DNA from: a virus
Reading direction: 5' to 3' (one strand)
IMG/VR virus record: IMGVR_UViG_3300014720_000108
Span: 1-32,772 of that record
Length of the DNA: 32,772 bases
Shown here: positions 3,824-32,279 of the stretch, in pieces
Position numbering within the stretch: the stretch's first letter is position 1
Layout: every line of letters starts with the position of its first letter
Made by a program: the position numbers and the translations under genes
Notes under the pieces: model-generated
What the model was told of the DNA's origin: nothing
Databases searched by the model: none
Seen by the model: the letters and a program-made list of their open reading frames with translations, nothing else

Positions 3824-4387
3824 TCATAGGTATAGATCAACAGGTATGGCCAGACGAATATTTCCATTGAATGGTGTGACTTGGTGATAAAGGAAACTAG
3901 GAAAAACTACAAAAGAGTATGATTTTGGCTCGAAAATAAAAGATTGAAAAAGTTTATCCCACGGTTCTTCTTTATACCCTCTATTTGCATTTGTCCGAGG
4001 GTCAAAGAAAAAAACATCACCATTTTTATTACCTTCAATTATTAAATAAAAAACAGCAGATAAACTTGCATTTGCGTGATTGTGGTTAACCATATTATAC
4101 CCAATTTGTGAACCAGAAAACCAAGCTTTTAAATGAAAATTTTTAAAGTCATAAAGTGATGATTTTAAAATTTGTTTAATCCAGTCATCAAAACATGGTT
4201 CAACTACATTTTTTTTAAAATCATCAAAATAACTATCTTCTTTAAAAATATTTCTGTCACTAAGGTCACTAATTCCCATATTCTCTAAATTATAATTCTG
4301 TAAAATGTGTTGAGAAATGGAGTCTACTAAGTCAACATTTTTTATACTACCTATTAATATATTTGTTGGCCATAAATTGTGCATCAT
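3824..4387 (-). CDS. Putative 2OG-Fe(II) oxygenase, 2OG-FeII_Oxy_5 type (187 aa)
   Basis: The sequence has the order of motifs seen in the 2OG-FeII_Oxy_5 family, which is frequent in T4-like marine phages. These are an N-terminal MHNLWPTNIL stretch, a NHNHANASLSAVFYL segment with H102 and H104, GDVFFFDPR around D129-R131, and a final VFPSFLYHQVTPFNGNIRLA with H168 and R178. These fit iron and 2-oxoglutarate binding, although which His of the NHNH pair is a ligand cannot be decided here. The substrate is unknown; protein hydroxylation fits the context. It is the last gene of the enzyme block and starts by ATGA overlap with the 131-residue gene. Confidence 0.8.
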   Translation of the reverse strand: MMHNLWPTNILIGSIKNVDLVDSISQHILQNYNLENMGISDLSDRNIFKEDSYFDDFKKNVVEPCFDDWIKQILKSSLYDFKNFHLKAWFSGSQIGYNMVNHNHANASLSAVFYLIIEGNKNGDVFFFDPRTNANRGYKEEPWDKLFQSFIFEPKSYSFVVFPSFLYHQVTPFNGNIRLAIPVDLYL

Positions 4388-4779
4388 AACATAAATTCCT
4401 TGACAAAATATTCTTTAACATCAGGCACCATACCTTTTTTTTCATCAAAATTCCAACCTATATGGTTTAAAATTTCATTGTAAGTTTTAATATCTTTTTC
4501 ATAAGGTAAAAAATAAGGGTCGTTATTATAAAGTAGTTCAGAATCATTTAAATATTCTATTGGATTTCCTCCAAAGTTTTCAGATAACCATCGAGCATAA
4601 CATATTCCAACCATGTAACTTTTAGATGGGTAAATCCAACCAATATTTGTTTCTTTAAAATAACGAATAGCATTTTCAACAACATTTTTTGTAATTTCAA
4701 TATTTTTTGTTTTTAGATCATCATCATAATCTTTATTTAGCCTATGATAAATTTCTTGTCGAATTTTCCAATCTTTCAT
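4384..4779 (-). CDS. Unrecognised protein of the modification block (131 aa)
   Basis: I do not recognise this family. It is a soluble-looking, aromatic-rich protein (NIGWIYPSKSYMVGICYARW, NNDPYFLPYEKDI, MVPDVKEYFVKEFML) with no signal peptide, membrane segment or metal-binding cluster. Its start overlaps the end of the upstream radical-SAM gene by 38 bases, and it hands over to the next oxygenase by ATGA. It is therefore embedded in the operon and probably works with it, perhaps as a binding or adaptor subunit, which is a guess from position. No strong ribosome binding site is seen before its ATG. Confidence 0.7.
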   Translation of the reverse strand: MKDWKIRQEIYHRLNKDYDDDLKTKNIEITKNVVENAIRYFKETNIGWIYPSKSYMVGICYARWLSENFGGNPIEYLNDSELLYNNDPYFLPYEKDIKTYNEILNHIGWNFDEKKGMVPDVKEYFVKEFML

Positions 4780-5683
4780 ATTTGTACCAATCTATTAGGT
4801 GTTTAAAACCATTACAACCATTATCTAAATTTTTAACTTCTCGCAAATGCTCAGAAAGACAATTTCCAAAATATTCACATTTAGAACAAAATGTATTTTT
4901 TGAAACTCTTATCTTTTCTTTTTTACACCAATTTAAATAATCATTATATGTTTCACAATCTAAAAAATATTCTCTATCATTTAAATCAAATTCCAATACT
5001 GCAAACTTACCTTCTGGAGTTATATAAAGATGATCATCGGAAAAACTATTTCTTTTTTTTTCTAAAACATCTTTCAAAAGATATTCATTTATAAATTCAA
5101 AGTTTTTTGGTATCGCACTAGTGATCCACTTTTTAACAAATTCACCATAATCTTTAAAAGAAACAGGTAAACAATTTGCTTGATTCTCACTATACGGTTT
5201 AATCTCAACACTCTGTAAATTGGATAAAAGATTTAATTGAAAAATCATATCATCCACGTTATGATTAATTATTTTATCACTAGCCAATATAAGAATACTA
5301 AATGGTCTGTTTAATTTAATCATATTATTCCAAACTCTTTCATGTTGTTCTCGAACATTAAAATCGTAACTTACAGAAATATAAAAATCTGGATCAGAAA
5401 TAATACTATTAACCATTGAAAGGTTTGTATTTACATTAATTGATTTTATATTGTATTTGTGTAATAATTTTTTTAAATTTAAAATATAATCTTCAGATAA
5501 AAGGCCAATTTCACCGCCATAAAGATCAACATGATCTATAATATCATTATTTAACACTTCAATTATTCTATTTTCTAATAACTCAAGATCTAGTAATTTT
5601 CTATCATTTAACTGTTCAGAAGTTAAATAACAAAAATGACATTTAAAATTGCAATAATAAGTAGGATTAATAGATAGTATCAT
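4742..5683 (-). CDS. Radical SAM protein with reduced SPASM-like C-terminus (313 aa)
   Basis: Starting at ATG 5683, the protein begins MILSINPTYYCNFKCHFCYL. The CX3CX2C motif (C11, C15, C18) binds the [4Fe-4S] cluster that cleaves S-adenosylmethionine, and the later YGGE matches the SAM-binding GGE motif. The C-terminus has CSKCEYFGNC (C266, C269, C275) and C290, a SPASM-like auxiliary cluster region with fewer cysteines than the siblings. An in-frame ATG at 5695 would add four residues; 5683 is preferred because the N-terminus then aligns with the 357-residue neighbour. It overlaps that gene by 17 bases. SPASM enzymes usually modify peptides or proteins; the substrate here is unknown. Confidence 0.88.
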   Translation of the reverse strand: MILSINPTYYCNFKCHFCYLTSEQLNDRKLLDLELLENRIIEVLNNDIIDHVDLYGGEIGLLSEDYILNLKKLLHKYNIKSINVNTNLSMVNSIISDPDFYISVSYDFNVREQHERVWNNMIKLNRPFSILILASDKIINHNVDDMIFQLNLLSNLQSVEIKPYSENQANCLPVSFKDYGEFVKKWITSAIPKNFEFINEYLLKDVLEKKRNSFSDDHLYITPEGKFAVLEFDLNDREYFLDCETYNDYLNWCKKEKIRVSKNTFCSKCEYFGNCLSEHLREVKNLDNGCNGFKHLIDWYKYERLENSTRNLS

Positions 5684-6740
5684 ATTCTTTAACATAAGGT
5701 GTTGGTTCTAAATTAACACCATTTATATCAATTATATCTTGTGCTAAAGATTTCATTTTAATGCAATGTAATTCTACCATATCATGGTCTTTTAAGTCTT
5801 TAATAGTTTTTTTACAACCATTACAAATTTTAAACATTGGACAAGTAAAACAACTCTCTTTTAAACTTAAAAGGTTAACATCTTGTTGAAGAACAAAAAT
5901 TTTTTTACCTTTCATTTCTTCTTCAAAATTTATTGAATGGGATCTATCATCACCAAAAGCACCACAACTATAATAATCACCGCTAGGTTGTAAAGTTCTT
6001 ATTGATTCATCACAACTTCTATTTTGAGGGCATGTGGTATGATTTCCTTTTAATCTTTGCATCATTTGTTTTGTATTATATTCCCATTTCCACAAATCCA
6101 TTTTATAAATTTTAACATATATTTCGTAAATATCTGCTAAAAGATATGGTTTTCCTTGTTGGCCCATAGTAATATTTTTAAATTTTACTGGTGGACCAGA
6201 ACTTAGAGCATAGTTTAATTTACACTCAACATTCATTTTTTTAGCCAATTCTACATTCTTTATTGCATCTTTTTCATTTTCTTTAGTAATAACAGAAATG
6301 AAATCTGGTCTATAACCTATATGTTCTAACATCGTATCACTTACTTTCCAAAAATCTTCTTCAGAAAATTCAGTAAGATCACCTTTTAATCTTCCACCTC
6401 CATATTGAAAACTTGTGGTTACTCCAATTCTCCAATTTAAAAACAAATCTTTCCACTTGTTTACATTTTTATAAAATGGCCACAAATTTGTAGTTAATGA
6501 TATGGTAGTTTTATAATTATTTTCATCTAACCAATTTATTATTTTCCAATAATAATTGGATGGTACCATTAAAGGATCGCCGCCATTAACAATAATTGTA
6601 TTTGTTTCTGGATAACGTTCTAAAAATCTAAAGATATAATCGTGATTTAACTCTGCTGTTTTATCTTCAGTAATATAAGTGCTTGAACAAAAAGTGCATT
6701 TAAAATTACATTTTTCTGTAGGTTTGATTATCAGTTCCAT
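5667..6740 (-). CDS. Radical SAM/SPASM-like protein (357 aa)
   Basis: The N-terminus MELIIKPTEKCNFKCTFC carries the CX3CX2C motif (C11, C15, C18), and NTIIVNGGDPLM supplies a GGD form of the SAM-binding GGE motif. The C-terminal third has many cysteines, including CPQNRSCDES, YYSCGAFGDD and CFTCPMFKICNGC (C297, C300, C306, C309), then C326. This fits an auxiliary-cluster (SPASM or twitch) domain as in peptide-modifying radical-SAM enzymes. The gene starts by TAATG overlap with the upstream oxygenase and overlaps the next radical-SAM gene by 17 bases. A role in modifying a protein or peptide is expected from the family; the target is not evident from this gene itself. Confidence 0.9.
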   Translation of the reverse strand: MELIIKPTEKCNFKCTFCSSTYITEDKTAELNHDYIFRFLERYPETNTIIVNGGDPLMVPSNYYWKIINWLDENNYKTTISLTTNLWPFYKNVNKWKDLFLNWRIGVTTSFQYGGGRLKGDLTEFSEEDFWKVSDTMLEHIGYRPDFISVITKENEKDAIKNVELAKKMNVECKLNYALSSGPPVKFKNITMGQQGKPYLLADIYEIYVKIYKMDLWKWEYNTKQMMQRLKGNHTTCPQNRSCDESIRTLQPSGDYYSCGAFGDDRSHSINFEEEMKGKKIFVLQQDVNLLSLKESCFTCPMFKICNGCKKTIKDLKDHDMVELHCIKMKSLAQDIIDINGVNLEPTPYVKEYDTIY

Positions 6741-7264
6741 TATAAATCAAAATAAAAAGATGACACAATTCTTTTACAATTAGATTTTTCAGCTTTATGT
6801 TGAAAATTATTTAAACAATTTACTGCAACTAACAACCCTTTTTGAGGGTATATTTTCCATTCTCGTACTTTATTTCGAAAATAAACTGCGCCACCTTTTG
6901 ATTCATTCATATCTGAAAAATATAAAAGAAAAAAACAATTCGGTCCTTCTCTGTAATCATTATGCCAATTTAATGCATCTTGATTAACACCTTCCCAAAT
7001 TCTCCTTTTTCTCATAATTGACTGTGGTACTATATCATTTTGAATTTCATAGTGAATTGTAAGTAAACATTTATCTATAAATTCTTTATTATTTTTAGGA
7101 TGATAATCATTATTTAAACCTCCTTCATATTCCCATTCTATCTCTGATACATTTATGTATGAAATGTATTTTTTTCTATCAAATACTTCAAAACCATTTT
7201 CATAAAATTGTTTAGTTAGCATTTGGTTTATCAAATCCATATTTGTTATCACAATCTTTTGCAT
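6740..7264 (-). CDS. 2OG-Fe(II) oxygenase, prolyl-4-hydroxylase-like, paralogue 3 (about 174 aa)
   Basis: Iron and 2-oxoglutarate ligands are visible as WHND (H101, D103 from ATG 7264), H156 in FQHKA, and R165 in CKRIVSSFYF. The motif order xWxGV...WHxD...FLLYF.D....GGA...P..G.L...N....HKA...R..SF.F is shared with the genes at 7501-8022 and 10749-11264. The start is uncertain. ATG 7264 has an AGGTGA ribosome binding site eight bases upstream; GTG 7276 and ATGs at 7240 and 7222 are alternatives, and 7222 would match the paralogues' N-termini best. It overlaps the 98-residue gene and ends in TAATG with the next. Likely a protein side-chain hydroxylase; substrate unknown. Confidence 0.88.
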   Translation of the reverse strand: MQKIVITNMDLINQMLTKQFYENGFEVFDRKKYISYINVSEIEWEYEGGLNNDYHPKNNKEFIDKCLLTIHYEIQNDIVPQSIMRKRRIWEGVNQDALNWHNDYREGPNCFFLLYFSDMNESKGGAVYFRNKVREWKIYPQKGLLVAVNCLNNFQHKAEKSNCKRIVSSFYFDL

Positions 7265-7508
7265 AAAGTGTGTCACCTATACTTTTGACACCTTCAATTT
7301 CACAAATTTTTTTGTTTATTTCTCTGATTTGTTCTTTTATCATACTACCATAAGGTTCCATATTGTTAATCATTTTCATATAAAGTTCATATTTCTCTTT
7401 ATTTTTTTGATAATCATGCAATTTAGTGATCCATATATTATAAATTTCAGCACATAAATCTCTTTCTTTCATCAATTCTTCTTTTCTTTTTAAAAGATCT
7501 TCAATCAT
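7212..7508 (-). CDS. Small coiled-coil-like protein of unknown function (98 aa)
   Basis: A 98-residue, highly charged protein with an almost continuous helical pattern (MIEDLLKRKEELMKERDL..., KEQIREINKKICEIEG) and two late cysteines. I do not recognise it. It starts eight bases inside the end of the upstream oxygenase and overlaps the start of the next oxygenase, so it lies between two paralogous hydroxylase genes. It could be an assembly or substrate-binding partner, but nothing in the sequence shows this. It does not look like a PqqD/RRE winged-helix domain. Confidence 0.65.
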   Translation of the reverse strand: MIEDLLKRKEELMKERDLCAEIYNIWITKLHDYQKNKEKYELYMKMINNMEPYGSMIKEQIREINKKICEIEGVKSIGDTLYAKDCDNKYGFDKPNAN

Positions 7509-8022
7509 CTTTTAATCCCACTCTAAAATCAAAACTTGCAACTCTCCTAGTTACAGATGTACTATCTGCTCTATGCCAAAATCCTCTAAGATTATTTACC
7601 ATAAAAAGGTCTCCAGCTTTTGGCTGAAAACTAGCTATTTCTTCTTTATCTTCTAATGTTCCCCATTTAAAATTAATGGATCCACCAGTCTCCTTAAAAG
7701 TATCATCGAAATAATATAGTAAGAAAATGTCATATTCTTCAAACATGTCAGTATGCCAACCTTGGTTATCTCGGTCTACACCATTCCATACTATAAATTT
7801 ATTGTATTTTGCATCAGGCCATTCGGGCTCAATATATTTTTCTTTTAAGTAAAAAGCAAAAGTTTCTAATCTTTTTGTGAGCTCTGGCGAAACATCATTA
7901 ATGCCATTATCTCTAGTGCGTTCTTCAACATTTATCAATTTAAATTCATTAATTTTTATTAAATCTAACGCACCAGGTTCAAAAAATTTTACAAAACCTT
8001 TTGTGTAAATATCTTTTATCAT
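7501..8022 (-). CDS. 2OG-Fe(II) oxygenase, prolyl-4-hydroxylase-like, paralogue 2 (173 aa)
   Basis: A compact double-stranded beta-helix oxygenase with H90 and D92 in GWHTD, H150 in GFWHRAD, and R159/R160 in TRRVASFDF. These are the expected 2-His-1-carboxylate iron site and the arginine that binds 2-oxoglutarate. FLLYYFDD and ETGGSINFKW separate the two halves, as in P4H-like phage oxygenases. It starts by ATGA overlap with the radical-SAM gene upstream. The whole protein is catalytic domain with no targeting domain, so substrate recognition must lie in the fold or a partner. The reaction expected from the family is hydroxylation of a protein or small-molecule carbon. Confidence 0.9.
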   Translation of the reverse strand: MIKDIYTKGFVKFFEPGALDLIKINEFKLINVEERTRDNGINDVSPELTKRLETFAFYLKEKYIEPEWPDAKYNKFIVWNGVDRDNQGWHTDMFEEYDIFLLYYFDDTFKETGGSINFKWGTLEDKEEIASFQPKAGDLFMVNNLRGFWHRADSTSVTRRVASFDFRVGLKDD

Positions 8023-9740
8023 AAAAATTTAAACATTTCGCTTATTATAATAGGTTTATTATTTTCAATTAATTCATCAACAACTAAATTTCTCAATCTA
8101 CCATTTAATCTTTTAATGTTTTGTGCTTCTGTTTTTGGATCCAGAAGATTTTTAACTTGCTCAAATATTATAGGAAATTCTTCCATTGATGAAATAATAT
8201 CAAAACAATATTTGCCAAAAACATTTGGTTTCATAAACTGTTCAAACATAGGATATATTTGTTCCAATAATTTATTTTCTGCAAGATTCATTATCCACAT
8301 TTCACACATTTCTTCATTGGTAAATGAATAACAAGAAGATATTGTTTTGAAATATGTTCTTTTATTTTTATATAAGCTATTTTGATTATCAACACCAAAC
8401 TCATCTATAAGATCACTATAAACTTCAACCAATTTTATATCATATTTTTCTAAGTAATCTTTTTGCGTCAAATCACTATCAGGCAAAAACATGTAATCAT
8501 GACGATAACTTGTCCATGCTTTGAAGTTCCACATTATTTCCCACTCAGCATAAAAATCATCAAGCGTACTACCTGGCATACCCATAATAAGTTCGATAGC
8601 TGGCACAGGATAACCTTCCTCATGGCAACGCTTATGTATATGCTCACTAAGTTTTATTTTATCTTCAAAAGATAAATCGGCTCTTTTAGCAATCTTCATT
8701 GCTTCATCAGATATACTTTGAATAGATACTGTTGGTACAATGCTAATATATTCTTCATCAAATTGTAATTTACTAACATCATCCATACCAGCTACTAATG
8801 CTTGTCCACCTTCTTTACTTAATACAGGACTATGTTTCTCAGGTCCAGGCCCTACAACATCAAACCATGCATCAACCAAATTAATTCTTCTTTTTAAATC
8901 TTTACTTTTCATTGTACTAATATCAGTACAATTAACACCATTTTCCCAAGCAAATTTAAATATTTCAATATCTCTATCTTTAAATGCACCAAAGTTAGCA
9001 TCGGTTAAATATACATCTCTAAATCCAGCCTTTTTTAAAGCAAGTAAATCTTTTTTAACTATCTCAATAGGTTTTTTATAAATTTTAGAATCAATACCTC
9101 CACCCCATTCACAATAAACACAAGCATAAGGACAACCTCTAGTTGTTTCAATAATGCAAAATGGTTCTAATTCATTTTTACAGGCATAATTTCGAATTTC
9201 TTTCAGATAATCAATATGTTCCTCATATACGCTATAACTAGGCATAAATTGATCACATTGTTTTGAACTTCTTAATTCCCATGAAAGAGATTCTATATCT
9301 GGATTACCTGAAAATTCAAAATACGAATCGATCAATTCTTGTACAAACACTTCACCTGGCTTAGTAGGTTTTAAAATAAAATCATACATTGATCTATTAA
9401 TTAGAAATAAAGGATCATTTGTACCAATTTGTGGCCCACCTAAAACACAAATGCTTGTTGGATATTTTTCTTTTATCAATAAAGCTAATTGATCACAGAC
9501 TTCATAATTCCATATGTAACTAGAAAACAAATAGATTTCATTTTGGCCTATTTCATCAAGTATTTCTTGAACATTAGTATACTTGTTAAATTTATAAGGA
9601 GCAGGATTAAAAATTACCTTATCATTATTTTTTCCAAATCTTTTGTAATGAGATTGGAACATAAGATATGCCGCATTATTTGCTAAGCACCAATCTGCAT
9701 GTGGAGGATTGATGAAGCATACTCTACTTCGATTCAACAT
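8019..9740 (-). CDS. Cobalamin-binding-like radical SAM protein (573 aa)
   Basis: The central motif IETTRGCPYACVYCEWGGG gives CX3CX2C at C203, C207 and C210, with the 'ETTRGCP..C.YC' context typical of B12-dependent radical-SAM proteins. The first 150 residues (RVCFINPPHADW..., IYLFSSYIWN, CVLGGPQIGTNDP, FILKPTKPGEVFVQELID) follow the Rossmann-like cobalamin-binding domain pattern, without the DxHxxG motif that supplies a lower axial His. The remaining 350 residues resemble the TIM-barrel continuation (TVSIQSISDEAM, IELIMGMPGSTLDDF). ATG 9740 is chosen over 9770 because AAGGAAG lies nine bases before it; it then overlaps the upstream gene by 17 bases. Family members often methylate unactivated carbons; the substrate is unknown. 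Confidence 0.88.
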   Translation of the reverse strand: MLNRSRVCFINPPHADWCLANNAAYLMFQSHYKRFGKNNDKVIFNPAPYKFNKYTNVQEILDEIGQNEIYLFSSYIWNYEVCDQLALLIKEKYPTSICVLGGPQIGTNDPLFLINRSMYDFILKPTKPGEVFVQELIDSYFEFSGNPDIESLSWELRSSKQCDQFMPSYSVYEEHIDYLKEIRNYACKNELEPFCIIETTRGCPYACVYCEWGGGIDSKIYKKPIEIVKKDLLALKKAGFRDVYLTDANFGAFKDRDIEIFKFAWENGVNCTDISTMKSKDLKRRINLVDAWFDVVGPGPEKHSPVLSKEGGQALVAGMDDVSKLQFDEEYISIVPTVSIQSISDEAMKIAKRADLSFEDKIKLSEHIHKRCHEEGYPVPAIELIMGMPGSTLDDFYAEWEIMWNFKAWTSYRHDYMFLPDSDLTQKDYLEKYDIKLVEVYSDLIDEFGVDNQNSLYKNKRTYFKTISSCYSFTNEEMCEMWIMNLAENKLLEQIYPMFEQFMKPNVFGKYCFDIISSMEEFPIIFEQVKNLLDPKTEAQNIKRLNGRLRNLVVDELIENNKPIIISEMFKFL

Positions 9741-10743
9741 ATTTAAATACTTCCTTAAACACACATTCATCCATATCTTTAACTAAGTTTTTATAATCAT
9801 TTCTTATGAAACAAGTAAAACCACATCTATTATAATATTCACATGAAAAACAATCATATTCTTTTAAAAATAATTGTATGATTTTTGTTCCACCCAACTC
9901 TTGTGTTTTTGGATCTTTTAATAATACACTTCCAGAACATCCTTTTGGTGTACTATTGTCATTCATTATGGTAAAACTACTACCTCTTGTACAAGACATT
10001 TTATAGTTTTTATCTTTGTTTAGAAAATATTTTACATTGTTGCATTTTGGATAATGATCAACAAGATGTTTATAGAAGGTAAATAATTCGGATTGTTTTG
10101 GCATTAATGCATCGTTAAAATTTTTTCCTGGTAGTAATTTATCCCAATCACAAATAAAATTTGAATAAAGATAGTCAAAATAAGGATCACCTTTTAATAA
10201 CTTATCGATGTTTTGTTTTGTGATGACCAAACTTATAATATTAATATATTCTTTAAATTTTTCAATGTTTCTTTTATAAATTTCAAATTGTTCATTGTTA
10301 AATCTACCTGCTAAATCATAAGAAACATTCATCTTCAAATTGTTTTTCTTACAAAAATTCACAACTTCATCGATACAGTCATATACTAAATTAGTAACAA
10401 AAAGAAATGTTATCTCTTTATCTTGTGACACATTTGATCTTATTGTATCTATAAATTCTTGATAGTAATTTAAAAATCCATCTTTGACGAATTTATCTTG
10501 AAATAATTCACCACCCATGATATGCATCAAAAATTGTTTTTTAGGATTATTATTAATGAATTCTATAATTTTTGGGCACTTGCTAAGTATTTCTTCTTTG
10601 CTAGCACCCAATAAATCATTGTGATTTTGAGGGCAAAAAACACATGACATATTACAATGTTCAAAAAATAAAATGACCACTTCTACATAATCTATAATTT
10701 TATCTTTTATTACATCATAAAAAAAATCTTCATTGTTTAACAT
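9724..10743 (-). CDS. Radical SAM/SPASM protein (339 aa)
   Basis: CX3CX2C occurs in EHCNMSCVFCPQNH (C30, C34, C37), preceded by a longer N-terminal lead (about 29 residues) than in its siblings. HIMGGELFQD supplies the SAM-binding GGE. The C-terminus has CTRGSSF, a PKGCSGS loop and CFSCEYYNRCGFTC (C298, C301, C307, C311), then C327. The CX2CX5CX3C...C spacing is the SPASM signature, so two extra [4Fe-4S] clusters are likely. It begins five bases after the upstream oxygenase. SPASM enzymes typically form thioether, C-C or C-O links, or oxidise side chains, in ribosomal peptides; which of these applies cannot be told from sequence. Confidence 0.9.
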   Translation of the reverse strand: MLNNEDFFYDVIKDKIIDYVEVVILFFEHCNMSCVFCPQNHNDLLGASKEEILSKCPKIIEFINNNPKKQFLMHIMGGELFQDKFVKDGFLNYYQEFIDTIRSNVSQDKEITFLFVTNLVYDCIDEVVNFCKKNNLKMNVSYDLAGRFNNEQFEIYKRNIEKFKEYINIISLVITKQNIDKLLKGDPYFDYLYSNFICDWDKLLPGKNFNDALMPKQSELFTFYKHLVDHYPKCNNVKYFLNKDKNYKMSCTRGSSFTIMNDNSTPKGCSGSVLLKDPKTQELGGTKIIQLFLKEYDCFSCEYYNRCGFTCFIRNDYKNLVKDMDECVFKEVFKYVESK

Positions 10744-10748
10744 TTTTG

Positions 10749-11264
10749 TTAAGTTTTAGGCAAAATAAATTCGAAAGAAGCTAATCTTCTTTTCGTATTT
10801 GCTGTATCAGCTTTGTGTAAAAATTTTTCAGATTGATTTAACCATACTAACATATCCCTTTTTGGATAAATTTTTTGTTCTCCAAAAGGTCCTTTAACAT
10901 ATAAAGCTCCACCAGTTTTTTCAGACATGTCATCAAAATAAAGTAAAAAATTACAATCTACTCCTTTTCCTTCATTACTATCATTGTGCCATTGTTGTGA
11001 TCCAAAATCAACTCCATCCCATATGCCTACATTTCCTAAAGTAAAAGAATTGTAAATTTTTTTTAAATGTTTTTCAGCTATTTTTATTTGAACTTTTTTT
11101 AAAATTGAAAGAACATTTTTAGGTATATAAGATTCGTATTCTTTTTCTTCAAAAATTTCACAATTTTCTATTTTGTAATCTTCAATATTTTTGAAATGTT
11201 TTATAAGATTTGATTGGTGTATAATGCAACATCCTTCTGTTAAAAAATTTTCATATGTTGTCAT
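10749..11264 (-). CDS. 2OG-Fe(II) oxygenase, prolyl-4-hydroxylase-like, paralogue 1 (171 aa)
   Basis: Iron-site residues H93 and D95 lie in QQWHNDSNEG and H150 in KFLHKAD; the 2-oxoglutarate arginine is R159 or R160 in TKRRLASFEF. The IWDGVDFGSQQWHND and FLLYFDDMSEKTGGALYVKG segments align without large gaps with the oxygenases at 7501-8022 and 6740-7264. ATG 11264 overlaps the TGA of the upstream gene as ATGA; this fits better than the TTG two codons earlier. It is the first recognisable enzyme downstream of the cysteine-histidine-tailed 193-residue protein and two unknown proteins. A protein hydroxylase role is inferred. Confidence 0.9.
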   Translation of the reverse strand: MTTYENFLTEGCCIIHQSNLIKHFKNIEDYKIENCEIFEEKEYESYIPKNVLSILKKVQIKIAEKHLKKIYNSFTLGNVGIWDGVDFGSQQWHNDSNEGKGVDCNFLLYFDDMSEKTGGALYVKGPFGEQKIYPKRDMLVWLNQSEKFLHKADTANTKRRLASFEFILPKT

Positions 11265-12397
11265 ACGCAATAATATTGAAATTTTTCTTTTGTGTTTTCT
11301 TTAACACAATTTAAAACAAAATCAATAAAATAATGATTAACTGTTTCTAAATCTATTGAATAAAAAGTACCAGCAGCATGATTACCTTTTAATTCAAAAT
11401 CAATAATTTCTTTCAATTCTTCATCTGTCATTACATCTTTGGTTATATGTTTCAAAAATGTTAATTTGTATTTGTCTGATTTATTGAATCTATAAAAATT
11501 TTCTTCTTCCCATTCTTCGCCAGAAATTTCAGTAAACTTTATAAAATTATCAATATCTTCATCTGTTATATTTTCAAATTTAATATTTCCAGATGTAGAA
11601 GGTTTAAATAGTCCTTCATTATTCCATATTTCTTTTTTAAAGAACACTTTTACTAAAGGAGATTCATCATTTACAATATCATAGAAATTAGAAAAATCAT
11701 AAACTTTTGTTGTTTGTAATTTTTGTTGGAAAGCTTTTCGCAATAAATGTACTAATAATATTTCTTTTATTTCGTAAAAATATTTTTCTAAATCTTTTTT
11801 AATTAAAACTTTTAATATTTTTTTAACTTCTTCTGAAGAAGATCCATCAAATAAATAAGATGCAAGTAAAAATTCAATACTAAAAAATTTTTTATTTTCT
11901 TTGACGAAATTTTCTTTTTCAGTTTTATTAATATTAATAATTTCAAATAAACTATCAAATAAATTTTTTTCAAAATTTAAATAGTATTGTGTATGACTAA
12001 TTCTCATTCGACCATTTGAAAATAAATTTTCTTTAAATGAATAAGATTTTAATAGACTATAACATTCATCGCATTTTGGTTCTTTCAAAACCAATTTATA
12101 CCAATTAATTAAAATTTTTAAAAAATTCTCAGAATCAGAATAAATTACAATTGGTTTATTTCTTTCTTCTAGCTTTAATGAAATTTGATTCATCATGTCA
12201 ACAAAAGATGAAAATGTTTTATTTTCACCAATTAATTCTTCTAAAGAAAGAGAAAAATAAAATAATTTTCCATCAAAACTATTTTCTAAATCAGAAGATA
12301 CTCTATAACCGTGATTTTTGGATATTACAATACGGTCTCTAAAAGTATTTAAATTTTCATCTATATCTAAGTAAATTTTTTTAAACAGGTGTAACAT
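11261..12397 (-). CDS. Unrecognised protein of the modification block (378 aa)
   Basis: I do not recognise this protein. It opens MLHLFKKIYLDIDENLNTFR and has a strand-like VIYSDSENFLKILINWYK stretch near residues 100-120. A long charged helical middle follows, then a C-terminal part with GEEWEEENFYRFN and HAAGTFYSIDL, ending in QYYCV. No signal peptide, membrane segment or known catalytic motif is seen. It overlaps the 229-residue gene upstream by 17 bases and the oxygenase downstream by ATGA. Its coding DNA is extremely rich in A and T and the protein in Lys, Glu, Asn and Phe. Position immediately after the putative substrate and before the enzymes suggests a partner or scaffold role, which is inference only. 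Confidence 0.72.
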   Translation of the reverse strand: MLHLFKKIYLDIDENLNTFRDRIVISKNHGYRVSSDLENSFDGKLFYFSLSLEELIGENKTFSSFVDMMNQISLKLEERNKPIVIYSDSENFLKILINWYKLVLKEPKCDECYSLLKSYSFKENLFSNGRMRISHTQYYLNFEKNLFDSLFEIININKTEKENFVKENKKFFSIEFLLASYLFDGSSSEEVKKILKVLIKKDLEKYFYEIKEILLVHLLRKAFQQKLQTTKVYDFSNFYDIVNDESPLVKVFFKKEIWNNEGLFKPSTSGNIKFENITDEDIDNFIKFTEISGEEWEEENFYRFNKSDKYKLTFLKHITKDVMTDEELKEIIDFELKGNHAAGTFYSIDLETVNHYFIDFVLNCVKENTKEKFQYYCV

Positions 12398-13070
12398 TTA
12401 ATTCAGTTCCTTGTTTGAAATATTTTTCTGCCAAACCATTAGCTATACCCCATGTCATCAAGAAAAGTGGATTATTATTATTTGCCCAATAATAATACAA
12501 ATTTTTTCCTTTAAACATGTATTCTTTGAAAAAATCTTCATAAAAAAATAATTCATTACTTTTCATATTTTCAAATAATAAATTAAAATCTTCGTATTTG
12601 AAAAGATTTACAAAATTATATCCTAAGTCATCACAACTTTTGTGTTCTTTAGATTCAATATCTTTTTTGAAAGTTTCAGAATTAACACAATAAAAATTAT
12701 ACAAAGACATACTTTCTAATAATTTTAAAATTTTGTTGAGTTCTTCTTTATTTTTTTCAATGAAGTCTTTGTAACCAAAATTACTAATGCCTTTTATTTC
12801 TAAAAAAATATTTAAAAATTCTTTTTCTAAAGAAGGTATAGATATAATATTTTTAGTTTTTAAATAATTCATCAATAAATTTTGGTGATCCTCTTTGTTT
12901 TTGTCAAAAATTAAATCACACGGCAAATCTAAATTAGAAAGATAAATTAAAAATTTTTCATTTTTTAAATTGCTATTATCATAATCAATTAAAAAAATTT
13001 TTTGTTTATCATTAAAATATTCTTTCAATTTTTCAATCGCAATTGGCGCAACTGTTTCAATTATATTCAT
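12381..13070 (-). CDS. Unrecognised protein translationally coupled to the CH-tailed protein (229 aa)
   Basis: I do not recognise this protein. It begins MNIIETVAPIAIEKLKEYFN, followed by KIFLIDYDNSNLKN and CDLIFDKNKEDH, an alternating strand/helix pattern. It ends with a more conserved-looking YYYWANNNNPLFLMTWGIAN and the tail GTELNVTPV. ATG 13070 is preferred to ATG 13097 because it overlaps the preceding TAA (TAATG) and has AGAGGAAGAAG just upstream. Those bases also encode the last residues of the 193-residue protein. Such tight coupling suggests near-equimolar synthesis with that protein, for example as chaperone or recognition factor; this is inference from arrangement. Confidence 0.72.
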   Translation of the reverse strand: MNIIETVAPIAIEKLKEYFNDKQKIFLIDYDNSNLKNEKFLIYLSNLDLPCDLIFDKNKEDHQNLLMNYLKTKNIISIPSLEKEFLNIFLEIKGISNFGYKDFIEKNKEELNKILKLLESMSLYNFYCVNSETFKKDIESKEHKSCDDLGYNFVNLFKYEDFNLLFENMKSNELFFYEDFFKEYMFKGKNLYYYWANNNNPLFLMTWGIANGLAEKYFKQGTELNVTPV

Positions 13071-13651
13071 TATCTTCTTCCTCTTGAACCATGGCAATTA
13101 CTATGACATGAATTATGGCAAACACTATATGATGCTAAAAATACATTCTGACGCTGGTTATTATTGTATTGAGAATGACAATCGTCAATAAATTGTACCA
13201 ACCGATATGCATTAATTGTTGCTCCTTCAATTATGTTACCAGTTGATCCAGGATTTGAAAATCCTGGTGCCGCATAAGCTGGTGTCATATGACTTATACC
13301 TGTGCGTGTTTCACTTGTTTGTGCCGGACCACCACTTGCTGTAACAACTCTTGTAACAGATACAGATCTTATTCTACAGTATTCTACAGATCGACCAATT
13401 ATATAATCTTTTATGCCTTGATCATCAATTATATTTCCTGGATTTATACTATTGGTACTTGTAGGAGCTAATGGCAAACCACTCGTTGATCCTCCATAAG
13501 CCGATGTAAATGCGGGATTTGGAATATCAGGAAAATGATAATTATTTGTGCCATATGTTATCCATGAGTTTGCATACGTAACAAATCTACTAAAAAAAGT
13601 ATCATAAAAATCTTGAGCTTGTACTGTTTGTCCAGCTGTTATTTGTGGCAT
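13070..13651 (-). CDS. Virion-like protein with CHxxCHxxCH-GSRGRR tail, candidate modification substrate (193 aa)
   Basis: The first 150 residues are rich in Gly, Ser, Thr and Asn with phage-structural character (MPQITAGQTVQAQDFYDTFF, PGNIIDDQGIKDYIIGRS, GFSNPGSTGNIIEGATINAY) and contain only one cysteine, C92. The C-terminus then has C158-H159 and three regularly spaced pairs, C178-H179, C182-H183 and C186-H187, followed by GSRGRR. No enzyme motif or signal peptide is seen. It has its own late-type promoter and an AAGGAG ribosome binding site before ATG 13651, so it is probably made in quantity late, like virion proteins. It is surrounded by radical-SAM and oxygenase genes. Substrate or metal-binding tail protein are the two readings I favour; neither is proven. 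Confidence 0.8.
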   Translation of the reverse strand: MPQITAGQTVQAQDFYDTFFSRFVTYANSWITYGTNNYHFPDIPNPAFTSAYGGSTSGLPLAPTSTNSINPGNIIDDQGIKDYIIGRSVEYCRIRSVSVTRVVTASGGPAQTSETRTGISHMTPAYAAPGFSNPGSTGNIIEGATINAYRLVQFIDDCHSQYNNNQRQNVFLASYSVCHNSCHSNCHGSRGRR

Positions 13652-13678: not shown

Positions 13679-14719
13679 TCAAGCCACCAACTTTAAATTC
13701 CATACCCTTTTACTATTACCTTTGAGTTCTTTCATTAAACTTTTAGGTGCACCGCAAATATCATCTTGCCACTTCAATTGATGGCAGTCTCCACCACAAT
13801 ATTCAAAAACTTCGCAAGAAAAACACCTAGAGTCTATATTTCTTTCGCAAGCAATATTTTCTATTCTTTTCGGACTATCTAAAAGCTCTTTAATATTCTG
13901 ATCGATATGTCCAAACTGGAACTCTGGTGCTGCATTTGGGCAACCAGATATTGTACCGTCAGCATTTAAAGTGAATAATTTTTCTTCGCAATCACGGCAA
14001 AAAGTTCCACCTCTATTAAAATTTTTCTCAAACTTATCATATACAGTTTCTAAAAATTCATTTTCGAACCAGTATCTAGCTTCATACTGTTCTGATTGTT
14101 TATGCATTTTCAAAAACCATTGATCTTGGTCAATATTAGAAGGAAATATTTCTGGATGTTTGTTTGCACTTCCGTCTTCAGTAAGTCTTTCAAATGCTAC
14201 TTCTTGAACACCTAAAGTTTTTATCCAAGATAATAGATGTATTGGTTCTATGTCTATCGTATCTTGGGTAACGCTTACAAATAATTTTATAGTTACACCT
14301 TCATTTAACAAAGTCTGTACATTTTTATACCAAAGATTTGATTGCTTTTCATTGTCAAATCTTATTTTAGGATCCCAAGAAGTTCCTATTCTACTACCAA
14401 GGGGACCTTTGATAAAGTCAATATGTTCTTGCGTTAATTTAAATACTAAATTTGTTGTAACGCCCCAAGAAATTTGTGGCCACAAATCTTTACACTCATT
14501 CCAAACATACTGCATTTGTTCAACTGGTGCCAGAAAAGGTTCACCCCCATGGAATTCACAATGAAGTGTGCCAGAATTTATAGAAGTAAAGCGTTTGATC
14601 CAATCTGTAACTTTTTTGTAATCCCAATAAATTTTAGGGCCATTAATACCATTTGTGAAACAATGTTTGCAGTTAAGATTACATGTTTCAGTTGTTTTTA
14701 AATAAAACATATAATTCAT
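13679..14719 (-). CDS. Radical SAM/SPASM protein, sulfatase-maturase-like architecture (346 aa)
   Basis: The N-terminus has KTTETCNLNCKHCFTNG with CX3CX2C (C13, C17, C20) and HCEFHGGEPF with the GGE motif at 58-60. The C-terminus holds TFCRDCEEKL, TISGCPNA and CFSCEVFEYCGGDC (C299, C302, C308, C312), then C322. This is the complete SPASM pattern CX2CX5CX3C...C preceded by a GCPN loop. The architecture is that of anaerobic sulfatase maturases and RiPP thioether or crosslinking enzymes, about 370 residues long, so this is near full length. It starts by ATGA overlap with the cupin-like gene and stops one base beyond the late promoter of the 193-residue protein, whose modification is its most economical job. 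Confidence 0.92.
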   Translation of the reverse strand: MNYMFYLKTTETCNLNCKHCFTNGINGPKIYWDYKKVTDWIKRFTSINSGTLHCEFHGGEPFLAPVEQMQYVWNECKDLWPQISWGVTTNLVFKLTQEHIDFIKGPLGSRIGTSWDPKIRFDNEKQSNLWYKNVQTLLNEGVTIKLFVSVTQDTIDIEPIHLLSWIKTLGVQEVAFERLTEDGSANKHPEIFPSNIDQDQWFLKMHKQSEQYEARYWFENEFLETVYDKFEKNFNRGGTFCRDCEEKLFTLNADGTISGCPNAAPEFQFGHIDQNIKELLDSPKRIENIACERNIDSRCFSCEVFEYCGGDCHQLKWQDDICGAPKSLMKELKGNSKRVWNLKLVA

Positions 14720-15189
14720 AATTTATCAACTAAAAATTTTTCAATACCAAAACTTAAAAATAAACAAGAATCGTTGTGTGTTGCCCAATGAGGTCTATTT
14801 GCTTTAATGTAATGTCTATCTTCTTGTTTTAAATGTATCGATACATCATCAAAATTAAGTGTGAATTCACCAAGTAAAATTTGTAGATAAACATCATCGG
14901 GATCGCTATGTCTAGGAAAACTTTTGGAATTAGGAAATGATCTGAAAGCATGACAAGTCACCGGACCATCATGATTAAATATTTTTGATAATTCAAGGGA
15001 GCGTCTATAGATGGAAAGATTATATTTTTCCATACCTTCAACTTTAATTGTTTTTCCATAATTTGAATGAAGTTGACCAAGATTATCTAGATATATTTGC
15101 CTACCTAAATCATCTAAAATTGAAACCAACTTCTGTTCATATGCTAAATCATTTTCAATAAAACGGTGAAACTCATCAAGTGTTATCAT
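14716..15189 (-). CDS. Small JmjC/cupin-like putative oxygenase (157 aa)
   Basis: The C-terminal half reads FPRHSDPDDVYLQILLGEF...LKQEDRHYIKANRPHWATHND...LFLSFGIE. It resembles a cut-down Cupin_4/JmjC ribosomal-oxygenase core: H94 and D96 form the HxD pair, 'DDVYLQILLGE' matches 'hDvfvlQleG', and H134 or H138 would be the distal iron ligand. At 157 residues it lacks the extra domains of bacterial RoxA-type protein hydroxylases. A plain metal-binding cupin without oxygenase activity is possible. It is coupled on both sides, with TAATG to the 1,054-residue fibre and ATGA to the SPASM protein, so it is made with a fibre and a modifying enzyme. Confidence 0.68.
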   Translation of the reverse strand: MITLDEFHRFIENDLAYEQKLVSILDDLGRQIYLDNLGQLHSNYGKTIKVEGMEKYNLSIYRRSLELSKIFNHDGPVTCHAFRSFPNSKSFPRHSDPDDVYLQILLGEFTLNFDDVSIHLKQEDRHYIKANRPHWATHNDSCLFLSFGIEKFLVDKL

Positions 15190-18100
15190 TATAAAATAGC
15201 TGTTTCTACTAATCCTTCTTCTTCTGTATTTTTTGTTTCGATAGCTATACCAAAATAATTTTGCTGATTATATTGTGCCACACCAGCAGTAGAACTTATA
15301 CCTAAAGGTTGTCCTTTTTTAATTTTACCTAAAACTCTAACTGAAACTCGACCTTTAATACCTACTGTTGTGCCGCCTTCAAGTTCACTATTCATTGTAT
15401 ATGCAGGTCTATATGATACTACACCTAAGACTTTAAAGTCAACAATAGTTGAGGCTGTTACTTCTTTATCGCCGCCAATTGATAAAACGGTACCAATTGG
15501 ATATTCTCTGTCGGCCAAATATTTTTCTGCCAAGTCAGCATATCGAGCTGAAGTAGCTGTACCTGAGAAAAGAGAAGCAGTTACGGTGTATCCGGTGGCA
15601 TTTATATCACCAACTGATCTTAATCCAGAATTGAATTGTGCATACGGACTTACAGTAAAGGAACTGCCGCCCATTGAAAATGATCCGCCAGTTTGATTAA
15701 ATCCAGTACAGTTTTGAATCGATCCGCCATTTAAGTTTGTAGCTGTGCCAGCTGTAGTTGCTGAACCTGCTGTAGTTGCTGATGTTGCTGATGTTGCAGA
15801 AGCCGCAGTACCAGAAATGCTAATTGGGTATGTTCCACTAAATGCAGCCCATGATGCGGTAGTACCATCAGTACTTAAATACCTTCCAGAATTTCCTCCT
15901 TGCGGCGGTAATGCAGACAAGCCACCTGTAACTGAATCAACATAAGCTTTTGTGGCGGCGTGTAATGGTATTGATGGATAACTCGTTCCAGGTAGTGTTA
16001 TACCTCCAGTCATTGTTCCGCCAGTTAATGGTAAGTAACCAGCTAAAGTAGAATTAATTGATGTGTTTCCTACAACATCTTGATATGTTGAACCATCATT
16101 TGTAAATCTCCATTTATCAGCAGTTTCATCCCATAAAAAATAAGTATTTGGAGAAGCTCCTCGATCAACTTCCAATCCAGCATTTTCAATTGGAGAAGCA
16201 GACTGTAATATATCTGAATTTAATGTTATAATTGCATCAGCAATTTTTAAATCATTAGCAAAAATTGATGCACCAGTAGCATTTAAAACACCATTGATTG
16301 TTAAATCACCTGTTATAGTACCACCAGAAGATGTAATTCCTGTATTTGCACGAGCAAACGCTGCATTAGCATGAGTATATGCATTGAAAGCATAATTGTT
16401 TATTGTATTTGCAAATGTAAATGCTGCATTAGCATGAACATTTGCCAAAGAAGCTCTAACGTTGGCATCAACTGCTTTTTGATCAGCAATTGCGGCGTTT
16501 GTCAAAGCGGTGTTTGCAGTAAAGTATGCTGAGTTTGTATGAGTGCCTGTTGTTCCCGCAAAAGCTGCGTTAGCAACATTGTGTGCCGAATTTGCATGAG
16601 CATAAGCTAATTGTCCACCAGCATTAAATGCTACATTGGCCGCATCAAAAGCTTGTTGTGCCAAATTATTTGCGGTGTTTGCATGTGCATAAGATGAATT
16701 AGCATGTCTAAAAGCAACGTTAACGTGCGTATCTGTTGTACCATTAAATGCAGAATTTGCTACATTATGTGCCGAGTTTGCATGAATGTATCCAGTATTT
16801 GCATAAACTCCAGTTGTGTTTTGACTTAAAAATGCACTATTAGCATGTCTGTACGCCGCATTAGCATAACCGCCAGCAACAACACCACCTGCTTCATATG
16901 CAAATTTAACAGCACTTGCAGATGCAACAAGAGTATCACTTGAAGAATCAACTCCAGTATAAATGTCTGCGCCATCTAAAATTTTGTATGTTGTTGTCCA
17001 AGTATTACCTGTTGAAACTTCCCAACGATCATTAATTTCATTCCAAAGAATTTGTGCATTATTTCCTGAAATGCGTCTATTAATTATAAATGCATCTTTA
17101 TTTGTACCAGTATTTGCATTAAATATAAATCTATCTGTCTCAAAATTAATATTACCTGTTTGCGTGAATATTCCAGCTACGGTAAGATTACCTTCAATAA
17201 CAGTAGTTTGTAATCTGGTTAGTCCAGAAATTACGGCTATAGCATCATTTGCTGATCCAGAATTAAATCTTAATGTTGATCCATTTGTAAAATTTAAATT
17301 ACTAGAAACATTTGCATTTGTAATATTTGCTGAAACAATATTTGAACTTAATAAAGTAGATGTATTTAAAGTAGCATTATTCGATGTAAGTGTTACTACA
17401 TTACCATTGATAATCGTACCATTTGTAATTGTACCATTTGTAATTTGACCAGTTGTAATTGCAGCCGAAGAAATAACAGCATTTGCAATTGCAGCGTTAG
17501 TTACTGTTGTATTGACTAAAGTAGATGTATTTAAAGTAGCATTGTTTGATATAAGTGTTACTACATTGCCATTGATAATTGTACCATTTGTTGCATTTAA
17601 ATTTCCAATAGTTGCAGTATTAATTGTTGCAACATTAGATGTAAGTGTTACTACATTACCTGTACCATTTGCAACAAAATCTCTGATCGTTCCAGTATTA
17701 GCATATAATGTATTTGATGTTAAATAATAAACATTACCTGTTGTTACACGCAAAATACCAATTACAGCAGAAGCAATATCAGAAAGGTTATCAATAAAAG
17801 CTTCAAGCGCATAAATTGTTCCAACATTAGCCTGATCCAATGTTGCAGTAGTTAGATATGCATTATTCACATATACAGTTCCAGTATTTGCTTCTAATAC
17901 TTTACCTGTTCCTGATAATGTAACAATACCAGCAACATTTGCAGTACCGCCAACATATACGGAATTATTTACAAGTGCATTGTTCGCATATACATTGCCT
18001 CTGACATTACTATTACCACCAACATACACGCTATTTGAAACATTAACTGCTTCACCTGGCCCAGCAATCAGAACCGAGTTACCTATAGAAACATTACCAA

Positions 18101-18353
18101 CACCAGATCCTACCGCACCAACAGAAACGTTGTTTGTTACTGCTAAGTTTTTACCAATAAAAGCACTATTTGAAATTTGAAGTGCGGTACCATTTGCACT
18201 TATTAGAAGTACAGAATCATTAGCTAATTCTAAAGTACCATTTGATTTTGTATAATTATTGGCTTTTAAATTATTTAATTCAATAGCCGACAAATTCGTT
18301 TGAATTCGCCATTCATCAATGGTATTCGTTCTTGTTATAATAGGAATAGTCAT
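15189..18353 (-). CDS. Tail fibre protein with ANxAF repeats (1,054 aa)
   Basis: The order along the protein is as follows. An N-terminal head (MTIPIITRTNTIDEWRIQTN) comes first, then glycine/asparagine-rich beta repeats (NSVYVGGxxNVxGNV). TLxSNNATLNTSTL-type repeats lie near residues 220-345, and a first WNE..DRW segment near 430. ANSAF/AHANAA repeats run from about 480 to 670. A module with WDETADKWRFTNDG follows, then a TAASATSATSATTAGSATTA low-complexity linker. The C-terminal domain begins ARYADLAEKYLADREYPIGT, a common end of marine phage fibres. There is no S74 chaperone motif. It is probably a host-contacting or fibre-shaft protein. The stop overlaps the start of the cupin-like gene. 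Confidence 0.88.
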   Translation of the reverse strand: MTIPIITRTNTIDEWRIQTNLSAIELNNLKANNYTKSNGTLELANDSVLLISANGTALQISNSAFIGKNLAVTNNVSVGAVGSGVGNVSIGNSVLIAGPGEAVNVSNSVYVGGNSNVRGNVYANNALVNNSVYVGGTANVAGIVTLSGTGKVLEANTGTVYVNNAYLTTATLDQANVGTIYALEAFIDNLSDIASAVIGILRVTTGNVYYLTSNTLYANTGTIRDFVANGTGNVVTLTSNVATINTATIGNLNATNGTIINGNVVTLISNNATLNTSTLVNTTVTNAAIANAVISSAAITTGQITNGTITNGTIINGNVVTLTSNNATLNTSTLLSSNIVSANITNANVSSNLNFTNGSTLRFNSGSANDAIAVISGLTRLQTTVIEGNLTVAGIFTQTGNINFETDRFIFNANTGTNKDAFIINRRISGNNAQILWNEINDRWEVSTGNTWTTTYKILDGADIYTGVDSSSDTLVASASAVKFAYEAGGVVAGGYANAAYRHANSAFLSQNTTGVYANTGYIHANSAHNVANSAFNGTTDTHVNVAFRHANSSYAHANTANNLAQQAFDAANVAFNAGGQLAYAHANSAHNVANAAFAGTTGTHTNSAYFTANTALTNAAIADQKAVDANVRASLANVHANAAFTFANTINNYAFNAYTHANAAFARANTGITSSGGTITGDLTINGVLNATGASIFANDLKIADAIITLNSDILQSASPIENAGLEVDRGASPNTYFLWDETADKWRFTNDGSTYQDVVGNTSINSTLAGYLPLTGGTMTGGITLPGTSYPSIPLHAATKAYVDSVTGGLSALPPQGGNSGRYLSTDGTTASWAAFSGTYPISISGTAASATSATSATTAGSATTAGTATNLNGGSIQNCTGFNQTGGSFSMGGSSFTVSPYAQFNSGLRSVGDINATGYTVTASLFSGTATSARYADLAEKYLADREYPIGTVLSIGGDKEVTASTIVDFKVLGVVSYRPAYTMNSELEGGTTVGIKGRVSVRVLGKIKKGQPLGISSTAGVAQYNQQNYFGIAIETKNTEEEGLVETAIL
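16068..16328 (-). repeat. Fibre module related to the three copies in the left fibre
   Basis: It encodes SGGTITGDLTINGVLNATG, then LNSDILQSASPIENAGLEVD, then WDETADKWRFTNDGSTYQDV. The motif order is the same as in 319-597, 1009-1281 and 1933-2208, so the two fibres share an exchangeable building block. Confidence 0.72.
16345..16910 (-). repeat. ANxAF/HANSAH repeat tract in the 1,054-aa fibre
   Basis: This stretch encodes many short repeats of the type AHANSAHNVANSAF and AYFTANTAL, about 11-13 residues each. Underlying DNA words such as gcattagcat recur. The left fibre has much longer tracts of the same kind between its modules. Heptad-like Ala spacing suggests a helical, possibly trimeric coiled-coil shaft. 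Confidence 0.72.
17353..17589 (-). repeat. 72-nt near-identical direct repeat inside the fibre gene
   Basis: Positions 17353-17424 and 17518-17589 are direct repeats of 72 bases differing at five positions, 165 bases apart and in the same reading frame (55 codons). They encode TIxNGNVVTLxSNNATLNTSTL. A partial third copy lies near 17636-17672. Confidence 0.8.
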
Positions 18354-26137: not shown

Positions 26138-26145
26138 GAGTCTAT

Positions 26146-31025: not shown

Positions 31026-31429
31026 TATCTTACTCTTTGTAGGAAGAATTGAATTGTTACGGGATTAGTTAAATTTATAATAAAGAATTTCAATTGTATT
31101 GAATAACCATTGTTTTCATAATCTGGTATAGCAGAAACTTTTGAAACACTTACTCTAGGCTCAAAATTTTCAATAGTTTGTAGTATCTCTCGTTCTAAAG
31201 TTATTGCTGTTATTGAATCCAAATTTTCAAAAAGCATAGAACGAATATTTGAACCAAAATCAGGATCAAAAGGTCGTTCATAATGATTGGTCAAAATTAT
31301 ATTTTTTAACGAATTTATAACTGCCTGTTCGTCTATATGTTTGTTTATATCTTTACGAACAGGGTGTATGTTAAAAGACAAGTCTAAGTCTTTATATTGT
31401 CGAGTTGTCTTTGTGGTTACTGTAGCCAT
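31025..31429 (-). CDS. gp25: Baseplate wedge subunit gp25 (134 aa)
   Basis: The central NHYERPFDPDFGSNIRSMLF and the following TLEREILQTIENFEPRV are the signature of the gp25/IraD-like family, which links the tail tube/sheath start to the wedge. At 134 residues it equals T4 gp25 (132). Despite the 'lysozyme' family label in databases no lytic role is expected. It precedes gp6 with a TAATG overlap. Confidence 0.92.
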   Translation of the reverse strand: MATVTTKTTRQYKDLDLSFNIHPVRKDINKHIDEQAVINSLKNIILTNHYERPFDPDFGSNIRSMLFENLDSITAITLEREILQTIENFEPRVSVSKVSAIPDYENNGYSIQLKFFIINLTNPVTIQFFLQRVR

Positions 31430-31448
31430 TTATTATTTATCTGATATT
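31430..31448 (-). promoter_or_regulatory. Possible late promoter before gp25
   Basis: The 19-base gap before gp25 reads, on the minus strand, GATAAATA (31434-31441), seven of eight bases of the T4 late octamer, followed by ATAA. No clear ribosome binding site is present and the distance to the ATG is very short, so the call is weak. Confidence 0.25.
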
Positions 31449-32276: not shown

Positions 32277-32279
32277 ATT

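Follow-up and report, generated by a model that had tools for sequence, protein, structure and literature searches.

The radical-SAM cassette in the window (the whole stretch of DNA analysed, a 32.8-kb virus record) probably matures a fixed core peptide, which is carried by a variable protein and displayed on a fibre used to attack the host. The candidate core is a 16-residue C-terminal tail of the CHxSCHxSCHxSRGRR type, and tails of this type were found in at least 119 IMG/VR stretches, seven records of cultured jumbo phages and nine genomes of Bdellovibrionota.

The tail gene and its C-terminal tip

The tail protein of the window, a variable carrier body with a conserved C-terminal tip, is encoded on the minus strand (13070..13651) by a genuine open reading frame, which starts with ATG and specifies 193 amino acids. 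The translation bears out an earlier note on this DNA, which described a protein with one cysteine (C92) in residues 1-157 and an end, VCHNSCHSNCHGSRGRR, where three CH pairs at four-residue spacing are followed by GSRGRR (V-C178H179NS-C182H183SN-C186H187GS-R190GRR193-stop). In an alignment with relatives, none of the three tail CH pairs and three terminal arginines varies (71/71), and the last 16 codons (13073..13120, minus strand; CHNSCHSNCHGSRGRR) are proposed to encode the core peptide. The column of C92 is occupied by cysteine in about three of the 71 relatives. A further CH pair upstream, C158/H159, is indeed present, as the note had it, and was dropped as a part of the motif, its column being cysteine in merely 5 of 71 relatives. 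Heme attachment was also considered and set aside on account of the spacing, which is CX3CH instead of CXXCH.

An AF2 model of the tail protein, calculated with 71 sequences, had a pLDDT of 85, with an ordered body and values of about 60 in the last two blocks. The tail, modelled with low confidence, is thus probably flexible, as a presented substrate would be. No convincing match to the body of the window protein was found in PDB fold searches.

Spread and conservation of the tail

The IMG/VR count was obtained with a degenerate DNA pattern that covered the tail and the stop codon. About 0.01 or fewer matches would be expected by chance, by a rough estimate that uses base composition and assumes a size for the collection, and the recurrence of the tail is far above chance. 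Each of the at least 119 matches is the C-terminus of a reading frame, normally of 120-364 amino acids, with shorter frames only where the IMG/VR stretch is cut. Columns that the pattern left free are also kept in the 132 proteins scored: Ser at -13 in 121, Ser or Asn at -9 in 129, and Ser at -5 and Gly at -3 in 119 each. The Ser position of the CHxS units is also occupied by Asn, Ala, Gln, Lys or Arg, and the Ser hydroxyl is therefore non-essential.

The check suggested in the earlier note, whether the tail is kept while the body varies, was passed when homologues were aligned. The tips of 171 unique proteins are on average 80% identical in pairwise comparison (minimum 56%), while the bodies are 32% identical by forced global alignment. 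The tip DNA is present in 163 different sequences among these proteins, with Cys, His and Arg codons drifting freely. No cysteine at all is found in 125 of the 171 bodies, and the number of CHxx units per tail is exactly three in 170 proteins and four in one. The lone four-unit tail is at locus L036 (8108-8878, minus strand).

Conservation that is near-absolute, terminal RGRR included, would also suit a docking signal. The tail could thus be a C-terminal recognition tag or leader for enzymes whose target is the body of that protein or a neighbouring fibre, an explanation that fits with there being more enzymes than obvious target sites. We consider it unlikely. All invariant columns of the tail protein lie within the tail, the nearly Cys-free body contains no invariant modifiable residue, and the C-H-x-S units, equal and three in number (one tail has four), resemble repeated units of a substrate. 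The reading of the tail itself as the substrate is preferred.

Single-linkage clustering of the body sequences at E 1e-4 gives ten groups. A Foldseek search revealed that the body of the Atu_ph07 protein, 16% identical, shares the fold of the window body, as does a 178-aa viral body that is probably the one of DT01; given the common fold, the view of the bodies as unrelated was dropped for these two. Judged from the models, the bodies are strongly divergent and not all separate in origin. The fold of the window body is also matched by BFVD entries A0A8S5USJ7, A0A8S5USV2 and A0A8S5USJ8 (Myoviridae sp. ctijX18; 504-660 aa).

An IMG/VR search with the tail-protein body returned no relative because the bodies diverge; the tail pattern overcame that. 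When phage records were searched by tblastn, only the C-terminal part of the FLC6/FLC8/SURPRISE13, DT01 and Atu_ph07 proteins was matched. The tails of Burkholderia phages FLC6/FLC8/SURPRISE13, Pseudomonas phage DT01 and Agrobacterium phage Atu_ph07 end VCHSSCHTSCHGSRGRR, ICHTSCHTSCHSARGRR and FCHSSCHASCHNSRSRR, and the tail protein of Sinorhizobium phage Phosso ends YCHTSCHASCHSSRSRR. Tails on divergent bodies, for example that of Phosso, are missed by tblastn, and the absence of a tblastn match carries little weight. Three of the 19 pattern matches on genome contigs (Frankia L128, Pseudoalteromonas L129 and Bordetella L135) were rejected as chance-like, with no proper protein end. Matches in MAGs of Rhodobacteraceae, Rickettsiales, Bacteroidetes and Euryarchaeota are probably phage contigs in bins.

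Layout of the cassette

The cassette runs on one strand, the minus strand, from 15189 down to 3824. Profile annotation gave a recurring order of fibre, cupin, rSAM1, tail gene, unkA, unkB, (2OG) and rSAM2, continued by (B12 radical SAM), (2OG), rSAM3, rSAM4, a 131-aa protein and 2OG. Upstream lies a gene for a long, fibre-like structural protein (15189..18353, minus strand) of repetitive sequence and with no Pfam match, and many loci have related proteins encoded ahead of the tail gene. The rest of the window looks like a T4-type baseplate/tail-fibre region, including a baseplate-like run at 24797-32768 and long fibre-like repeats.

The tail gene is preceded by genes for a cupin-like protein (14716..15189), which recurs in the cassette and matches Cupin_2 just under the cut-off, and for the radical SAM/SPASM enzyme rSAM1 (13679..14719), the proposed main maturase. 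The CxxxCxxC and SPASM CX2CX5CX3C...C cysteines of rSAM1 are invariant in an alignment of five phages, and the protein scores 36.9 bits against the SPASM model TIGR04085 (cut-off 27). The tail gene is followed by unkA (12384..13070; phrog_20767), a partner protein of 229 amino acids counted from ATG. Its AF2 model has a pLDDT of 93, and a PDB fold search with it gave no convincing match. The second partner, unkB (11261..12397), was assigned by profile annotation and is fast evolving by identity comparison.

Further downstream are a 2OG-Fe(II) oxygenase-like protein (10749..11270; 2OG-FeII_Oxy_3 just under the cut-off), the weakly HxsB-like radical SAM enzyme rSAM2 (9724..10743; phrog_1802) and a KedN5-like, B12-type radical SAM enzyme (8019..9770) that is present in only some cassettes. 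Two paralogues of the oxygenase-like protein (7501..8022 and 6740..7276; both phrog_19592) flank a small conserved protein with a RDLCAEIYNIWITKLHD motif (7212..7508). The cassette is completed by rSAM3 (5667..6740) and rSAM4 (4742..5695), both matching PF04055 above the cut-off, the recurrent 131-aa protein (4384..4779) and a 2OG-Fe(II) oxygenase (3824..4387; 2OG-FeII_Oxy_5). rSAM3 is highly conserved (78% identity between the window and locus L080, 57-61% to jumbo phages) and is present in the same seven phage records as rSAM1.

The small RDLCAEIYN(I/V)WITKLHD protein is common to the window (7212-7508) and bacterial cassettes (L226, 1770-2069; L229, 13743-14072). In a second layout, seen in L006, L029, L038, L070, L087 and others, two tandem tail proteins of about 126-140 amino acids with the identical tip type precede radical-SAM-like genes that have no Pfam match. 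The cassette of the Burkholderia phage contains two dihydrofolate reductase-like genes between radical-SAM genes (L003, 16834-18047). Near the cassette, a GIY-YIG-type endonuclease is annotated in FLC6 and a similar-looking ORF, judged by eye, is present in Atu_ph07 (L002, 5486-6199; L003, 9070-9978). The endonuclease is a possible mobility element.

Linkage of the tail and the enzymes

The earlier note had suggested testing whether homologues of the tail protein occur only next to radical-SAM genes, and linkage was observed in both directions. A radical-SAM-type gene is present on the contig of every tail stretch listed (119/119). In 113 of the 119, a radical-SAM-family HMM match is near the tail, and in the other six a Pfam Radical_SAM match lies elsewhere on the contig; the 18-kb fragment L106/G032 has radical-SAM-like HMM matches only, with no Pfam match. 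In the reverse direction, a search with rSAM1 yielded 80 loci, with the tail gene found in 75 of the 75 that have enough downstream DNA, and a search with unkA likewise yielded 80, with the tail gene adjacent in all (80/80), though the two sets overlap in contigs and are not fully independent. In most unkA loci, the tail stop codon is no more than 20 nt from the start of the unkA match. All seven phage records that have rSAM1 also have the tail, the pairing in FLC8 and in a second Atu_ph07 record being seen by tblastn only. No tail in a phage devoid of radical-SAM genes was found among the 119 stretches listed, the seven phage records and the nine bacterial genomes covered.

The gene order recurs in phages whose rSAM1 is 44-48% identical to that of the window. 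At an rSAM1 identity of about 71%, median identities are 88% for the tip, 32% for the body, 45% for unkA and 34% for rSAM2. By these figures, conservation of rSAM1 goes hand in hand with that of the tip, and the body drifts. We conclude that the tail protein is well supported as an enzyme substrate by conservation and two-way linkage, with the upstream CH pair left outside the motif.

Two other explanations have to be weighed against the linkage. In one, the tip is covalently unchanged and binds metal: the three CH pairs of each chain, which might trimerise, would hold Fe or Zn at the fibre end, and the enzymes would act elsewhere. Invariant Cys and His at regular spacing and a body low in Cys speak for metal binding. 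The tip of the T4 fibre protein gp37 contains HxH iron sites, which resemble the present tail in that His residues recur regularly where a phage fibre protein ends. The present tail differs in its Cys-His pairs, its terminal RGRR and the obligatory radical-SAM genes. Metal binding leaves unexplained why the tail gene and a SPASM radical-SAM gene are strictly linked in both directions, as well as the invariant Arg and the conserved Ser/Asn after each CHx, and we regard it as quite unlikely.

In the other, the radical-SAM and 2OG genes serve auxiliary metabolism and are cargo unconnected with the tail protein. Phage radical-SAM genes have previously been discussed as metabolic or Fe-S-related cargo: the 11-12 radical-SAM genes of Campylobacter phages CP220/CPt10 were interpreted as metabolic (PMC2853527), and 12 such genes in a T4-like marine genome were discussed under Fe-S metabolism (PMC5332604). 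Strict two-way linkage over diverged phages and bacteria makes this explanation hardly credible for the cassette described here. No relative of rSAM1 was found in Campylobacter phage records; therefore, the substrate in CP220/CPt10, if any, would differ.

The cassette in predatory bacteria

The nine Bdellovibrionota genomes, which contain rSAM1 as well as the tail, were the only ones with the tail in a pattern survey of 368 genomes of this phylum. Seven of them are labelled as relatives of Bdellovibrionota, and the survey assigns all nine to the phylum. They are mostly MAGs, and a binning error is possible for short contigs. The location of the cassette is apparently chromosomal: its neighbours on larger contigs, judged from sequence, are acyl-CoA dehydrogenase-like, ribosomal S20-like and ABC-F-like genes, and no phage structural genes were seen near the cassette on these contigs.

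Seven of the nine genomes encode a Peptidase_S74 domain no more than about 10 kb away from the cassette, although the nine genomes contain just 1-5 S74 domains each in 2.5-4.2 Mb; the other two have the cassette on a short contig. Two of three S74 proteins examined next to the cassette have a pilin N_methyl motif at their start. Each S74 pilin-like gene is accompanied by genes for a protein ending VDGRHWVxVK (L225, 7698-8324; L227, 17154-17705; L229, 8930-9526), with no Pfam match, and for a small protein with a signal-like start, both of which may belong to the same cell-surface fibre.

The MAT fibres of Bdellovibrio are a published example of S74 fibres that such predators use on their prey (PMC10769870). 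The likeness to the present loci lies in the predatory bacteria, the S74 chaperone domain and the use of fibres for prey. That report makes no mention of radical SAM, and two of three S74 neighbours here have the pilin motif. The position of the cassette beside S74 fibre genes in predatory bacteria provides independent support for a link between the tail protein and fibres.

In pelagimyophages, a hypervariable host-recognition cluster contains tail fibres and radical-SAM cassettes (PMC7029224). These variable cassettes of T4-like marine phages are likened to the present one by their location, and the passages on them give no substrate or role. Modules in this variable region are known to move as cassettes (PMC7029224), which would fit with a tail that signals assembly or attachment by docking its protein to a fibre or baseplate and is linked to the enzymes only through co-inheritance in one mobile host-recognition module. 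The pairing recurs in phages with a strongly diverged rSAM1, and also in bacteria with no phage structural genes nearby, and we consider such a signal very improbable as the explanation. Maturation of the tail by the cassette enzymes is retained as the preferred reading.

Comparison with known radical-SAM peptide systems

As in radical-SAM/SPASM RiPP-like systems, a dedicated precursor with a conserved C-terminal core adjoins the maturase gene. No RRE-type or PqqD-like recognition domain was seen in rSAM1 or the cassette in Pfam and NCBIfam scans, and unkA could serve as the substrate-recognition protein. The nearest NCBIfam models to rSAM1 are PapB, TIGR04083, DarE and DynA maturases, each with a cut-off far above the score of rSAM1, and its solved relatives include anaerobic sulfatase-maturating enzymes. 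On the basis of these models and relatives, a thioether or a His/Ser-type cross-link in each C-H-x-S unit is a reasonable guess, no more.

The best NCBIfam match of rSAM1 is PapB (NF047865), at 53.4 bits against a cut-off of 340. Ranthipeptide/PapB-type systems likewise have a precursor beside a SPASM radical-SAM gene and a C-terminal core with regularly repeated Cys. However, the carrier here is a folded protein of 120-364 amino acids with no visible cleavage site, each cassette encodes several radical-SAM and 2OG enzymes, and the setting is that of phage fibres. His-Xaa-Ser (Hxs) systems likewise have at least two radical-SAM enzymes and a core in which H-x-S is repeated, while the unit here is C-H-x-S with a period of four; rSAM2 scores 28.7 bits against HxsB (cut-off 370), and none of 71 tail proteins matched the HxsA precursor model. 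By analogy, the cassette would work like a radical-SAM RiPP pair, yet its proteins score below the cut-offs of the named RiPP families tested (PapB, Hxs).

Proposed mechanism and implications

From the conservation of the tail, its linkage, the variability of the body and the gene neighbourhood, we infer a modification of the tip, with its chemistry, location and function, as follows. rSAM1, foremost among the radical-SAM enzymes of the cassette, would recognise the tail, and the same modification, most likely a cross-link via the Cys thiol or the His ring, would be installed on each C-H-x-S unit. Further decoration of the tip may come from the remaining radical-SAM enzymes and the 2OG oxygenases, and also from the B12 enzyme in cassettes that have one. 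The neighbouring genes suggest that the modified tip remains part of the carrier and is presented by an attack fibre, at its end or elsewhere on it. In phages this would be a tail fibre, and in predatory Bdellovibrionota a cell-surface fibre chaperoned by S74. The tip may then help to contact or breach the envelope of the target cell, and the variable body may provide docking or receptor specificity. More tentatively, we propose that tailed phages and predators may have in common a CHxSCHxSCHxSRGRR peptide, cross-linked by radical-SAM chemistry and mounted on exchangeable fibres, that serves as a hard or reactive tip engaging or opening the Gram-negative outer membrane.

A literature search of open-licence papers turned up no account of radical-SAM enzymes maturing a phage tail peptide, and the phage and predator-fibre setting of a RiPP-like pair is new to the literature searched. 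Cultured phages of Burkholderia (FLC6, FLC8 and SURPRISE13), Agrobacterium (Atu_ph07), Sinorhizobium (Phosso) and Pseudomonas (DT01) are open to a direct test. If the proposal is true, a dedicated substrate would explain the many radical-SAM and 2OG genes of some marine and jumbo phages, and radical-SAM peptide chemistry would reach viral particles. One common maturation cassette would link phages with predatory bacteria, and a post-translationally modified peptide would be a part of the virion machine that has been moved between viruses and predators as a single cassette.
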